Below are positions 830-37,527 of a stretch of DNA of 64,000 nucleotides, in pieces; within the stretch, counting starts at the first letter, position 1, and each line of letters starts with the position of its first letter. The notes below the pieces were generated by a model. The model was not told where the DNA came from. It searched no databases and saw nothing but the letters and a program-made list of their open reading frames with translations. This DNA is from Methanoculleus receptaculi (GTDB lineage: Archaea; Halobacteriota; Methanomicrobia; Methanomicrobiales; Methanoculleaceae). The position numbers were made by a program, and so were the translations under genes. The stretch is from the NCBI RefSeq assembly GCF_033472595.1, contig NZ_CP137642.1, forward strand, positions 558,001 through 622,000. The letters run 5' to 3'.

Positions 830-2134
830 ATGGCTAAATACACAGAAACAATCGATCTATATTCTGATGATGGTAAACTGCTCAAAAGCGGCGTTACCCT
901 CGACAGAATCAGCCCGCTGGTTAACCCGGCCACAGGTAAGATCATCGACCTGACCAAGAGAACAATCAGTGTGAACCTCGGCGGCATCCAGGATGCGCTC
1001 AGGACAGGAAAACTTGGAAAGGGCAAGATCAAGGGAAGAGAACTTGACCTCCCGATCATGGAGAATAAGGATGCGATCGTCAGCAGGATCAAAGAGATGG
1101 TCCAGGTTGAGGAGGGTGACGACACCGAGATCCTGGAGTTCAATGGGGGTAAACTCCTGCTTGTCCAGGTCCCGACAAAACGCCTGATCAATGCATCCAC
1201 ATATGATGCCGCGATCACCTCGGTCGCAGCCGCGACAACGCTCGCGATCGTTGATCAGTTCAACATCGACGCGTTTAACGCCTCCACCGTCAAAGCGGCC
1301 TGCTGGGGCAGTTATCCTCACACCCAGGACATGGAGGGTGCGCTTGTCACATCCATCCTCACGATCCCGCAGAACAATGAGGGTATCGGCTACGCGCTCC
1401 GCAACATCCCGGTCAACCATGTCGTCATGATGACCAACAAGAACGCTCTCCAGGGTGCAGCGCTATCGTCCACCCTCGAGACCGCCGGGATATTCGAGAT
1501 GGGATCCGCCATTGGGCCGTTTGAGCGCGCCCAGTTGCTTGCCTACGCATACCAGGGCCTGAACGCGAACAACCTGGTCTACGACCTCGTAAAGGCGAAT
1601 GGTGAGAATGGGACGATCGGAACCGTCGTCCAGAGCCTGGTCGAACGCGCCATCGAGGATAAGGTTATCACCCCCGGCAAGAAGGGCGGCTACTTCCAGT
1701 TCTACGAGACGAAGGACCCGATGCTCTGGAACGCCTACGCCGCTGCAGGAACCATGGCAGCCACCATCGTCAACTGTGGCGCCGGACGGTTTGCGCAGGC
1801 GGTCTCGTCGACGCTCCTCTACTTCAACGATCTCCTCGAGCATGAGACCGGTCTCCCGAGCACCGACTACGGCCGTGTGATGGGTACTGCCGTCGGGTTC
1901 TCGTTCTTCAGCCACTCGATCTACGGTGGCGGAGGTCCCGGTATATTCAACGGCAACCATGTTGTGACCAGACACGCCGCAGGCGTGGCCATCCCGTGCG
2001 TCGTCGCCGCGATGGCGCTCGATGCCGGAACCCAGATGTTTTCGCCCGAGAGCACCTCGAAACTCTTCGCCGAGACCTACGGTAAGGTCGACGTCTTCAA
2101 CAAGCCGATCCAGCAGATCGCAAACGGAGCCTGA
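830..2134 (+). CDS. mcrB: Methyl-coenzyme M reductase, beta subunit
   Basis: Beta subunit of the alpha2beta2gamma2 methyl-coenzyme M reductase, which releases methane from methyl-CoM and coenzyme B in the last step of methanogenesis. The 434 residues match the usual McrB length. The C-terminal half is typical, with a glycine-rich SIYGGGGPGIF stretch (residues about 364-374) and a GNHVVTRHAAG segment just after it, a region that lines the active-site channel in solved structures. It is the first gene of mcrBDGA and follows a long AT-rich leader. The ATG at 830 gives the conserved start (MAKYTETIDLYSD). mcrD follows after 16 bp. Confidence 0.97.
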   Translation: MAKYTETIDLYSDDGKLLKSGVTLDRISPLVNPATGKIIDLTKRTISVNLGGIQDALRTGKLGKGKIKGRELDLPIMENKDAIVSRIKEMVQVEEGDDTEILEFNGGKLLLVQVPTKRLINASTYDAAITSVAAATTLAIVDQFNIDAFNASTVKAACWGSYPHTQDMEGALVTSILTIPQNNEGIGYALRNIPVNHVVMMTNKNALQGAALSSTLETAGIFEMGSAIGPFERAQLLAYAYQGLNANNLVYDLVKANGENGTIGTVVQSLVERAIEDKVITPGKKGGYFQFYETKDPMLWNAYAAAGTMAATIVNCGAGRFAQAVSSTLLYFNDLLEHETGLPSTDYGRVMGTAVGFSFFSHSIYGGGGPGIFNGNHVVTRHAAGVAIPCVVAAMALDAGTQMFSPESTSKLFAETYGKVDVFNKPIQQIANGA

Positions 2135-33310: not shown

Positions 33311-34225
33311 ATGTTAAGATTTGCCGATTTCAAGCCCGTAAGCCTGGAAGATCGCGAGGTGTTCCAGGAGCATTACCAGCATCACCCCCAGATGCACAGC
33401 GACAACACGTTCGCAAACATGGTCTGCTGGAACCACTATGCGGATTACCGTTTTTGCAAGGCCGGCGGTTCGATCATCCTCTCAAACACCATCGACGGTG
33501 TAACCGCCTTCCGTTACCCGATCGGCCCGGAAGATCCCGACCTTCTCGATGATGTCATCGACCTTTCACTCCGGGAGGGCGGGGAGACGCCTCTGCAGGT
33601 TCTGGATCCGGCGGGCGAGGCATTCATCCGGAAATGTTACCCCGACCTCCCGCTGCACCCGGACAGGAACTTCTTTGACTACGTCTACCGGACGGATGAC
33701 CTTGCCGATCTCCCGGGAAAGGGTTACGCCACCATACGGCACCAGGTGAACCGGTTTGCGCGGGACTACAACTATACCATCGAGGAGATCACCAGGGATA
33801 ACCTGGACGACGTCTGGGAGTTCCTGATAATCTGGTGCGAGTGGCGAGACTGTGACTCCATGCCCATCCTTGCTTACGAGAGAGAGGCCATCCTGTTTGC
33901 CGTGAACAACTTCTTCGAGATCGGGCTTGAGGGCTGGGCTATAAGGATTGGGGATGCCATCGGGGCGATATCAATCTTGGGGCCAGTAAACAGGGATATG
34001 GCCGTCGTTCACTTTGAAAAAGCTCTTCCTGAGACATATCGCGACATCTACAAGGTCATCATGAGCGAGACGGCGAGAGAACTTTGTGACCACTACCGCT
34101 ACATCAACCGGGAGTGCGACATGGGTGCGCCAGGGCTTCGCGAGTCAAAGACCCGCTACCACCCCGCCTGCATGGTTGAAGTCCACTATATGACCCGGGA
34201 CGACCTGGAGGCATGCTGCCGGTGA
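33311..34225 (+). CDS. DUF2156 protein (lysyltransferase C-terminal-like GNAT fold)
   Basis: 304 residues that read as the DUF2156 family, the fold shared with the lipid lysyltransferase MprF C-terminal domain: FSDNTFANMVCWNHYADYRF near residues 35-54, a central IRHQVNRFARDYNY segment and a C-terminal INRECDMGAPGLRESKTRYHP. These proteins have two fused GNAT-like halves and probably transfer an aminoacyl or acyl group. Between a GNAT gene and pyrC, overlapping the latter. Confidence 0.75.
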   Translation: MLRFADFKPVSLEDREVFQEHYQHHPQMHSDNTFANMVCWNHYADYRFCKAGGSIILSNTIDGVTAFRYPIGPEDPDLLDDVIDLSLREGGETPLQVLDPAGEAFIRKCYPDLPLHPDRNFFDYVYRTDDLADLPGKGYATIRHQVNRFARDYNYTIEEITRDNLDDVWEFLIIWCEWRDCDSMPILAYEREAILFAVNNFFEIGLEGWAIRIGDAIGAISILGPVNRDMAVVHFEKALPETYRDIYKVIMSETARELCDHYRYINRECDMGAPGLRESKTRYHPACMVEVHYMTRDDLEACCR

Positions 34226-35475
34226 CCGCCGACCTGCTGCTCCGGAACGTTGCATCACCTACAGGAAGGCGCGCCGATATCGCCGTCACTGGCGGTGTTG
34301 TCCGCCACGTCGGCGCAGCGGTTCGTGCCGATGAGACGATAGACTGCAGCAGGTTCACCTGCCTTCCCGGCGCGGTCGATATGCATGTCCACATGCGGGG
34401 CGGGGTGCAGGCAGATAAGGAAGACTGGCGTTCGGGCACGGTAAGCGCGGTCGCCGGCGGGGTAACGCTCGTCGTCGACCAGCCAAACACAGTCCCCCCG
34501 ATCACCACACCCGACCGCCTCCGGGCGCGCATCCGCGAGGCAGGGGAACAGGCCGTATGCGGGTTTGCCATTAACGCCGGTGTCCTCCCGGACGCGGACC
34601 TGACAGGGATGTGGAAGGCAGGCGCGATGGCGTTCGGGGAGACGTTCGCAGCACCGTCGAGTTATGGGGAGGGGCTTGACCTGGAGAGCCTGAGGGCTCT
34701 CTTCGCCCGTATCCACACCCTCGGAGGGCTTGCAACCGTCCATGCCGAGGAGGTCTGCGGAACGGCGCCGGAAACCCTCGCCGAGCACGACCGTGCGCGG
34801 CCGGGTGAGGGCGAGGCACGCGCTGTAGGGAGGGTTGGCGAACTCGCACCGGTGGGGATGCGGCTTCATTTCTGCCACCTGAGCACCGCTGCCTCGGTCA
34901 GGGCTGCCCGCGGCAGCGTAGAGGTGACACCCCACCACCTCTTTCTCTCGTACGAAGACTTCGATCCGGACAACACCCTGGCCAGGGTGAACCCGCCGCT
35001 AAGGGACGAAGCGACACGGCGTGCTCTATGGTCATGCTGGGATGCGATCGACGTCATTGCCTCCGACCACGCCCCACACACTCTTGCCGAGAAGAGCGTC
35101 CCGTTCAGATCAGCCCCTTCAGGCATCCCCGGTATCGAGACGATGGTCCCCCTCCTGATGGCGGCGGTGTACCGGGGGCGGATCAGCCTCCTGTCAGTGA
35201 TCGAGAAGACCTCGTGGAGACCCTCGGAGATCCTCGGCCTCCCTCGCGCAGGGTTCGAACCGGGTGACAGGGCGGACTATGCCCTCTACCCTGACGAACT
35301 CACCCGGATCGATGCCTCCCGCCTTCACACGAAGTGTGGCTGGTCGCCATTTGAAGGGAGTGAAGCGGTCTTTCCGGAAGAGGTGATCGTGGGAGGAGTG
35401 CGGGTCTACGCCCACGGCGACCTCCTGGAGGCACGCCCCCGATTCTGCCCCGGCAAAGGATATTTATTGCAGTGA
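34213..35475 (+). CDS. pyrC: Dihydroorotase
   Basis: 420 residues. Third step of pyrimidine synthesis. Metal-binding DMHVHMRGG (about residue 55-64), a later His in VHAEEV and CHLSTAAS, and Asp in ASDHAPHT are in the expected order for amidohydrolases. At the usual position of the carboxylated Lys the segment reads MAFGETFAAP, with no Lys. The alternative start GTG at 34222 would overlap the preceding stop as GTGA and is as likely as the ATG at 34213. Confidence 0.9.
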   Translation: MLPVTADLLLRNVASPTGRRADIAVTGGVVRHVGAAVRADETIDCSRFTCLPGAVDMHVHMRGGVQADKEDWRSGTVSAVAGGVTLVVDQPNTVPPITTPDRLRARIREAGEQAVCGFAINAGVLPDADLTGMWKAGAMAFGETFAAPSSYGEGLDLESLRALFARIHTLGGLATVHAEEVCGTAPETLAEHDRARPGEGEARAVGRVGELAPVGMRLHFCHLSTAASVRAARGSVEVTPHHLFLSYEDFDPDNTLARVNPPLRDEATRRALWSCWDAIDVIASDHAPHTLAEKSVPFRSAPSGIPGIETMVPLLMAAVYRGRISLLSVIEKTSWRPSEILGLPRAGFEPGDRADYALYPDELTRIDASRLHTKCGWSPFEGSEAVFPEEVIVGGVRVYAHGDLLEARPRFCPGKGYLLQ

Positions 35476-35499
35476 GATAAATAATAGATAGCCGATAAA

Positions 35500-35658
35500 G
35501 CGCACCTTATAGGTCCCCGGGTGATCACAGGCAGGACGCCAGGATATGAACCACGGGACAACCCGGGTGCGCGACAGGCACGCCCGGCATATGGGTTCGA
35601 TCGGGTGAGGGACGGCACAAGGCCACCAGTGATCCTGGATCGTTAGTGCCGGGCGACA
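35500..35658 (+). ncRNA. Tandem H/ACA-like pseudouridylation guide RNA
   Basis: Two consecutive 73-75 nt hairpins, each followed by ACA. Hairpin 1: stem GCGCACC (35500-35506) with GGTGCGC (35566-35572), upper stem GTCCC (35513-35517) with GGGAC (35555-35559), pocket strands of 6 nt on each side, and ACA at 35574-35576, 14 nt below the upper stem. Hairpin 2: a 9-bp stem (35581-35589 with 35647-35655), upper stem CGATC (35598-35602) with GATCG (35638-35642), ACA at 35656-35658. Both have GGGTGA on the 5' side and TGA on the 3' side, able to form the G.A pairs of an L7Ae kink-turn. A TATTTATT box at 35461-35468 and a T-rich end at 35672-35677 frame it. Targets not identified. Confidence 0.6.
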
Positions 35659-35679: not shown

Positions 35680-35997
35680 ATGGATACCTATGCCAATGCT
35701 GTCTCTGAGACACCGGATGGGGTGACCATTGCTCTCGACGTTACAGCAGGTGCAAAACGGTCTCTGTTCCCCGCGGGTTACAACGAGTGGCGTCGGAGTA
35801 TCCGATGTCAGGTGGCAGCCCCCGCAGTCGGCGGGAGAGCAAACCGTGCCGTCATAGACCTCCTGGCAAAGACGTTTGAGGTGTCCCGCGGCAACGTGAC
35901 GATCGTTGCCGGGCATGCATCTTCATCAAAGGTTGTGGCGATCTCCGGTTTATCACGTTCCCGTGCTCTCGAATGCCTGAACCGCTTCGACGCATGA
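35680..35997 (+). CDS. DUF167 / YggU family protein
   Basis: 105 residues, small alpha/beta protein family. Typical segments are VTAGAKRSLF, CQVAAPAVGGRANRAVIDLLAKTFEV and VTIVAGHASSSKVVAISG. Function unknown in all domains of life. It follows the H/ACA-like RNA closely; they might be read from one promoter. Confidence 0.88.
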   Translation: MDTYANAVSETPDGVTIALDVTAGAKRSLFPAGYNEWRRSIRCQVAAPAVGGRANRAVIDLLAKTFEVSRGNVTIVAGHASSSKVVAISGLSRSRALECLNRFDA

Positions 35998-36126: not shown

Positions 36127-37527
36127 GTGAACTACCCCGCCCTGAAGGGCGGGGCTTCCTGCTTCATGGCCAACACTTGCATCACAGAGATGTGATGTAG
36201 AGGTCTTGGCTCCACAGGCTCAAAGGGCTGTTCCATCCCCACGCGGTGGATATTTACCGCAGCGTTGTAATCTCTATTGGCAACAAACCCACAGTATGGG
36301 CATTCGTGGACTCTCTCGGAGAGCGTCTTTTTCACGATGCTTCCGCAGTTCGAACACATCTGTGTCGTGTCGCGGGGATCGACTTTGACGAGTTCCGTAC
36401 CAGCACTTTCAGCCTTGTACGAGAGGTAAGAATAAAATCGTCCCCACGACGCACTGTGGATACTTCTCCGGAGCCCGCGAGATTTGCCGTTCTCTTTCAA
36501 ATACTTGATATTCAGGTCTTCAACACAGATCGTCGCATAGGTGTCAACGTACTGACGGGAGAGTTTGTGCAGGAAATCGTTCTTCTGGTTGGTGACATGA
36601 TCATAGACCTTCTCCAGTTTCCTTTTTGCTTTCTTCCAGTTTTTCGAGAACCGTTTTTTCCGGGCAAGACTCCGCTGGATCTTCTTGATCCTGCCCAGAG
36701 AATGTTCATAGAACCTGGGGTTCTCGATCACTGCACCGTCACTATCGACCGCAAACGAATCCAACCCGACATCGATACCGACAGACTGCCCTTCACGCTT
36801 TGATGAAGACACTGTCTGCTCTGTCTGAATGATCACATACCATCTATCGCCGGAACGGGTGATCAGGACACCCTTCACCTTCCCGGTGTATGGTCGGTGC
36901 ATGTTGAACGGAATCGTTCCGATCTTCGAGAACGTAATCGAACTATGCTCGCGATCGATCTTGAAACCCGACTGATTATAATTGATCGTCCGGTATCGGG
37001 CTGCACTCTTGAATCGGAGTTTGCCGATCTTCCGTCCTCTCTTCTTTGTCTGCGAGAGTGCAGCGATGTTGCTCCAGAGGGTATAGTTGACCATCTGGAG
37101 CACTTTAGAGTATACGTCCTTGAGTGCAGGATTCTCCTCTTTCAGCGTGACGATCCGCGCCTGCATTTCTCGCATCGTCGGAGAGATCCCACCCTCTCGT
37201 GCCGTGTTGCATTCTTCGAGAAGTTTGTTGTAGAGCCACCTACAGGTATCAAGTGCAGTGTTCAGCCGTGTTTCCACGGTTGCGTCTGGATACGCTTGGT
37301 ACTTGTAGGAAACGATCATTTACTTCTCCATCTGCGAGTCAACATACTCCTTCAGCGCATCGAGACTTACCTGTCCTGATGTACCTGTACCGAATGTGCA
37401 GACCTATCAAGTTTATACCTCATGTTGGGTGAATGATATATCTATCGCAGGAAGGGCGGCTCCGCTTTCATCCCCATCGTGAACGGTGGGGACTTCCCGC
37501 TCCGCCCCCTTCACCCCCGCAAGTTAA
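36127..37527 (-). mobile_element. Complete tnpB-only element of the IS200/IS605 superfamily (IS1341 type)
   Basis: About 1.4 kb, minus strand. The left end (37440-37527) has the TTGCGGGGGTGAAGG start and a TCCCC-ACCGTTCACGA-TGGGGA hairpin; the right end (36127-36160) has GCCCCGCCC-TTCA-GGGCGGGG followed by TAGTTCAC. It carries one intact gene, tnpB, and no tnpA, so it could move only with a TnpA supplied in trans. The right end overlaps the tnpB stop, as expected where the omega (reRNA) guide RNA is made from the 3' end of tnpB plus flanking DNA. Deleted relatives lie at 80-303 and 5318-5730. Confidence 0.88.
36132..37319 (-). CDS. tnpB: RNA-guided nuclease TnpB
   Basis: 395 residues, intact. 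The split RuvC site is complete: Asp183 in GIDVGLD, Glu267 in CVEDLN and Asp350 in RDYNAAVNI. The zinc finger has CSNC (322-325) and CPYC (340-343). The N-terminus MIVSYKYQAYPDATVETRL is the usual TnpB start, with the RNA-binding region to about residue 170. TnpB cuts DNA next to a short target-adjacent motif using omega RNA. The last 30 residues are encoded by the element right end, so the frame overlaps the RNA. Confidence 0.95.
   Translation of the reverse strand: MIVSYKYQAYPDATVETRLNTALDTCRWLYNKLLEECNTAREGGISPTMREMQARIVTLKEENPALKDVYSKVLQMVNYTLWSNIAALSQTKKRGRKIGKLRFKSAARYRTINYNQSGFKIDREHSSITFSKIGTIPFNMHRPYTGKVKGVLITRSGDRWYVIIQTEQTVSSSKREGQSVGIDVGLDSFAVDSDGAVIENPRFYEHSLGRIKKIQRSLARKKRFSKNWKKAKRKLEKVYDHVTNQKNDFLHKLSRQYVDTYATICVEDLNIKYLKENGKSRGLRRSIHSASWGRFYSYLSYKAESAGTELVKVDPRDTTQMCSNCGSIVKKTLSERVHECPYCGFVANRDYNAAVNIHRVGMEQPFEPVEPRPLHHISVMQVLAMKQEAPPFRAG

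Follow-up and report, generated by a model that had tools for sequence, protein, structure and literature searches.

The window, by which we mean the whole 64,000-nucleotide stretch of Methanoculleus receptaculi DNA analysed here, belongs to a genome that consists of one 1.98 Mb contig. Two adjacent hairpins, each followed by an ACA box, lie between a pyrC-like gene and a gene of the DUF167 family (Table 1). The same RNA was found in 58 of 61 Methanomicrobiales genomes; pyrC is directly upstream of it in all 58 and DUF167 is just downstream in 57. Outside the order, pyrC or DUF167 adjoins the RNA in several lineages (loci L122, L131, L133, L275, L279 and L280), which suggests that the pyrC/DUF167/guide-RNA neighbourhood is old. 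Further along the window, at 36132-37319 on the minus strand, there is a TnpB/OrfB-type IS605 gene (OrfB_IS605, Cas12f1-like TNB zinc domain). The GC-rich palindrome CCCCGCCCTGAAGGGCGGGG near its 3′ end (about 36137-36156) is a possible omega-RNA and element end.

Table 1. Features of the locus, numbered from the first nucleotide of the window; pairings with rRNA and signals are predicted, and "order" stands for Methanomicrobiales
Feature	Position	Strand	Remarks
pyrC-like dihydroorotase/amidohydrolase gene	34213-35475	+	upstream neighbour, 58/58 genomes
Candidate TATA element GGATATTTAT	35458-35467	+	about 25 nt upstream of the RNA; position shared by most Methanoculleus sequences
Two-hairpin box H/ACA guide RNA (probable)	35491-35658	+	predicted mature extent about 168 nt; conservation, covariation, covariance-model homologues
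GCC, 5′ strand of a possible 3-bp helix enclosing hairpin 1 and its ACA	35491-35493	+	invariant in order
Hairpin 1	35500-35572	+	lower stem 35500-35506/35566-35572; upper stem from C35515-G35557
Hairpin 1, 5′ guide AUAGGU	35509-35514	+	pairs with 23S GCCUAU 2598-2603; near-invariant in order, UAGGU invariant
Hairpin 1, kink-turn	35523-35549	+	bulge 35545-35547; sheared G35523.A35549 and A35524.G35548; sequence and alignment
Hairpin 1, 3′ guide ACAACC	35558-35563	+	pairs with 23S GGUUGU 2590-2595; invariant in order
Hairpin 1, ACA box	35574-35576	+	invariant in order
GGC, 3′ strand of the possible 3-bp helix	35577-35579	+	would pair with GCC 35491-35493; alignment
Hairpin 2	35582-35654	+	lower stem 35582-35589/35647-35654; upper stem from 35598/35599 with 35642/35641
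Hairpin 2, 5′ guide GGGUU	35593-35597	+	pairs with 23S GACCC 1965-1969; alignment, target scoring
Hairpin 2, kink-turn	35607-35632	+	bulge 35628-35630; G35607.A35632 and A35608.G35631
Hairpin 2, 3′ guide GUUA	35642-35645	+	pairs with 23S UAAC 1958-1961; GUU invariant, A nearly so in order
Hairpin 2, ACA box	35656-35658	+	invariant in order alignment
DUF167 (YggU family) gene	35680-35997	+	downstream neighbour, 57/58 genomes

Structure, conservation, homology to known guides, rRNA complementarity and the protein genes were all established by computation. Single-strand folding yielded both adjacent hairpins with the lower stem, pocket and upper stem that the first-pass annotation had described. 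Hairpin 1 was far more stable than shuffled sequences (z = -3.6; 0 of 200 shuffles as stable), and hairpin 2 had a z of -1.95, with 7 of 200 shuffles as stable. The decisive evidence for the two hairpins is comparative. In plain MAFFT alignments within the order, comprising 33 hairpin-1 and 35 hairpin-2 sequences, 90% and 94% of the stem cells, respectively, were paired, and 11 and 13 pairs had changed on both sides. None of 500 shuffles matched any of the five measures, and slid registers were far worse. Across the phylum, 99.3% of the cells of the hairpin-1 lower stem were paired and six of its seven pairs were double-changed (59 distinct sequences); since the phylum-wide alignment had been fitted to the model, the in-order counts are the stricter test. 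Compensatory changes, which had been proposed as a check in related genomes, are abundant in both hairpins, and the earlier opinion that chance was unlikely can be put more strongly, as covariation excludes chance for each of them. A further short helix could form between the GCC and GGC triplets that surround hairpin 1 and its ACA, judging from their complementarity. Both triplets are invariant in Methanomicrobiales except for one U replacing the last C, and the helix is not consistently retained in lineages outside the order.

In both hairpins the ACA begins one nucleotide past the lower stem. The paired TGA motifs previously pointed out as kink-turn elements do belong to canonical kink-turns, which across the alignments of both hairpins consist of a 3-nt bulge, N-(A/G)-U, and then tandem G.A pairs. 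The distance from the closing pair of the upper stem to the ACA is 14 nt in hairpin 2, when the pair 35599-35641 is taken as closing. In hairpin 1 it is 14 nt in the free fold and, measured from C35515-G35557 in the target-bound register, 16 nt. The latter value is the top of the reported 14-16 range and lies beyond the 14-15 nt of those Pyrococcus guides that are productive. Productive guides fold with a GA stem of about 10 layers (PMC4652768). When bound to 23S U2596, hairpin 1 has 10 layers from C35515-G35557 to A35524.G35548, matching this length; hairpin 2 has 10 layers with its closing pair 35599-35641, plus a bulge.

Rfam searches, with the window at the gathering score and with the locus at E values up to 5, gave no match. 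Covariance models of hairpin 1 (R1) and hairpin 2 (R2) were built from the in-order alignments and searched in 247 genomes of the phylum, where hairpin 1 was found in 107 and hairpin 2 in 83. Outside the order, independent R1 and R2 matches are adjacent in many genomes (e.g., at L121-L124, L134 and L176). At the haloarchaeal-type loci L125-L128 and L180-L187 they are separated by a few tens of bases, in agreement with the report that haloarchaeal hairpins lie apart, with a long spacer (PMC2584109). At L052 (G037; 1870-2077, minus strand) other sequence splits hairpins 1 and 2, and the R2 match lies some 220 bases further. A three-hairpin RNA is present at locus L153, in a genome that we take to be that of Archaeoglobus fulgidus DSM 4304. 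The second hairpin of this RNA is an R1 match, and most of its length matches RF00064 HgcG (Pab40) at 92.8 bits, the gathering score being 77. RF00064 matches at R1/R2 sites were also seen at L130, above the gathering score, and at L123 and L134, below it. The third hairpin of L153, with GGUCAG ... GUGUUAC, sits where hairpin 2 would, an assignment made by eye, R2 having given no score. Because the Archaeoglobus homologue falls inside RF00064 HgcG, the window RNA is regarded as a diverged orthologue of Pab40 hairpins 2 and 3. The HgcG/Pab40 RNAs have three hairpins, of which the window RNA has the second and third; where the first would be, only 15 nt upstream of it, is the stop codon of pyrC. 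The RNA had been thought to be unannotated. This holds in that no Rfam model detects it, but the family itself is already known, and the window RNA is a real member of this guide-RNA family previously unrecognised by Rfam.

Target scans were carried out on the organism's own 23S rRNA (L059). Hairpin 1 can form 6+6 bp flanking U2596, in the A-loop. The 3′ guide duplex for this site was calculated at -6.1 kcal/mol; the proposed limit of -6.0, computed by a different program, comes from PMC4652768. Around U2627 there is another fit, formed by AACCCGG/CUGGGUU together with GGUC/GACC. The first-pass annotation had correctly recognised a pocket in hairpin 1 and had placed its strands at 35507-35512 and 35560-35565; the functional strands are instead 35509-35514 and 35558-35563, which requires that two more base pairs be opened. 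The pocket as originally drawn, closed by the pair 35513-35559, was rejected as it yielded only weaker rRNA sites, e.g., U2233. With the window sequence taken singly, 5 of 100 shuffled rRNA sets had a best score that equalled or beat that of the U2596 duplex. Since single-sequence scores are not significant alone, scores were averaged over 47 hairpin-1 sequences (that of the window and 46 non-haloarchaeal homologues). Mean complementarity then ranked U2627 first and U2596 second among all uridines of both rRNAs, and 0 of 40 shuffled rRNA pairs attained the top score. The search for rRNA targets that had been suggested earlier was thus fruitful: fitting uridines occur in the 23S rRNA of this organism, and the same positions are the reported sites of modification by homologous guides in Archaeoglobus and haloarchaea (PMC4652768, PMC2584109). 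The reported target of the A. fulgidus homologue Af4.2b is L2601 (PMC4652768). The A. fulgidus positions L1970, L2601 and L2639 given in that paper are all uridines in the 23S rRNA at L141 with a single offset of 5, and L2601 then corresponds to U2596 here. U2627 is equivalent to the reported haloarchaeal target 2621, and haloarchaeal-type homologues retain this fit only.

Hairpin 2 fits U1962 in helix 69 and perhaps also U1964. Its pocket, too, had been noticed before; the 3′ strand starts at 35642. The family keeps GGGU(U/A), complementary to the (G)ACCC by U1962, and in some relatives the motif reads GGGUUA and is fully complementary to UGACCC; the 3′ guide GUUA is retained in haloarchaeal and other homologues. 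In target scoring, 7 of 40 shuffles did as well as the best site, and U1962 was in third place, so the assignment of this uridine rests on homology: U1962 corresponds to the target published for Hvo2, Af4.3 and Pa40.3.

Taken together, compensatory change and the target uridines bear out the H/ACA guide proposed initially. We estimate at roughly 93% the probability that 35491-35658 is a two-hairpin box H/ACA sRNA, a guide for 23S pseudouridylation and the Methanomicrobiales orthologue both of hairpins 2 and 3 of Pab40/Pf7/Afu-4 and of Haloferax HP1-HP2. That the hairpins arose by chance in a G+C-rich spacer would be in keeping with the modest stability of hairpin 2 when folded by itself (the z of -1.95 given above), but the strong compensatory change and the conservation across families make this explanation negligible. 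Instead of a guide acting in trans, the RNA might be a structured leader acting in cis on DUF167, or an element within the intergenic region of a pyrC-DUF167 operon. Its constant place in the order, between the two genes and 21 nt before the DUF167 start, would be expected of such an element, as would the proximity of pyrC or DUF167 in a few outside lineages. However, Archaeoglobus, haloarchaeal and other homologues have neither gene beside them, and what is conserved goes beyond structure, since the pocket sequences match rRNA and known guides, and the ACA boxes and kink-turns are kept. The leader explanation was set aside because distant homologues are without a DUF167 neighbour, and we consider a cis element very improbable.

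For a guide RNA, different sets of hairpin-1 target uridines can be considered. Tentatively, and at somewhat less than even odds, we propose that its single pocket guides both U2596 in the A-loop and U2627 in the peptidyl transferase centre, 31 nt apart, and that haloarchaea kept only U2627. The CCCC/GGG upper stem would slide, exposing either AUAGGU/ACAACC or GGUC/AACCC, and this would explain the near-complete invariance of the hairpin-1 pocket and closing stem in the order. The pocket might instead guide only U2627 (Hvo 2605/Hma 2621), like the haloarchaeal orthologue, the A-loop match being coincidental. AACCC(GG) and GGUC do pair with CUGGGUU[UA]GACC, U2627 is the best-scoring site in both the order and the phylum sets, and C35564 is more nearly invariant than U2596 would require. 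Yet AUA 35509-35511 and C35559, which U2627 does not need, are retained in most non-haloarchaeal homologues and changed in haloarchaea, and in A. fulgidus the homologue has L2601, which corresponds to U2596, as its reported target (PMC4652768). Restriction to U2627 therefore appears unlikely.

Transcription of the guide RNA, its assembly into an RNP and the modifications themselves are inferred. The TATA box noted upstream in the first-pass annotation has a counterpart in GGATATTTAT, a TATA-like element conserved in the genus at about -25. It overlaps the conserved end of pyrC, and its status as a promoter element is ambiguous because the same bases encode a conserved G-Y-L near the PyrC C-terminus. 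The T-rich tract noted just after the hairpins is not a conserved terminator, and no other conserved terminator was seen. Given this, and with DUF167 starting 21 nt after the hairpin-2 ACA, co-transcription with DUF167 or pyrC followed by processing is possible. Genes for Cbf5, Nop10 and L7Ae are present in the genome above the cut-off; a Gar1 candidate scored 26.6 bits, below the curated cut-off of 29.3. In the proposed mechanism, L7Ae would recognise both kink-turns, and Cbf5 together with Nop10 and Gar1 would bind the lower stem and the ACA. The pocket strands would pair with 23S rRNA on either side of a uridine that Cbf5 would convert to pseudouridine. Hairpin 1 (ACAACC and AUAGGU) would direct this to U2596, with U2627 as a possible second register near the peptidyl transferase centre, and hairpin 2 (GUUA and GGGUU) to U1962, perhaps also to U1964. 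We take U2596 and U1962 to be the equivalents of E. coli U2555 and 1915, and the E. coli equivalents of the predicted target uridines together to be 1915, 1917, 2555 and 2586.

These results assign a function to an RNA that is conserved in a methanogen order but escapes Rfam. They predict that methanogen ribosomes carry pseudouridines in helix 69, in the A-loop and in the peptidyl transferase centre. If hairpin 1 does serve two sites, the two hairpins together would account for as many as four pseudouridines. The results also join the guides of Thermococcales, Archaeoglobus and haloarchaea into one lineage. Among the related guides, Afu-4 of A. fulgidus shares both hairpins and their order, with Af4.2b directed to L2601 (U2596 here) and Af4.3 to L1970 (U1962 here) (PMC4652768). 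It differs in having an extra first hairpin and lower-stem sequences that are wholly different, yet compensated. Haloferax volcanii HP1-HP2 (Hvo1/Hvo2, also called sR-h45) has two hairpins like the window RNA, and R1 and R2 match haloarchaeal-type loci. HP2 is reported for both 1956 and 1958, equivalent to U1962 and U1964. In haloarchaea a long spacer separates the hairpins (PMC2584109), whereas those of the window RNA are adjacent, and the haloarchaeal-type hairpin 1, with reported target 2621, has lost the A-loop complement. Pab40/Pf7/HgcG (RF00064) of Thermococcales has three hairpins against two here, the second and third being homologous through Archaeoglobus and intermediate homologues. 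Its third hairpin addresses the same helix-69 uridine as is predicted for hairpin 2 (L2016 in P. abyssi, PMC4652768), while the listed target of Pa40.2 is L1932 and not the A-loop.
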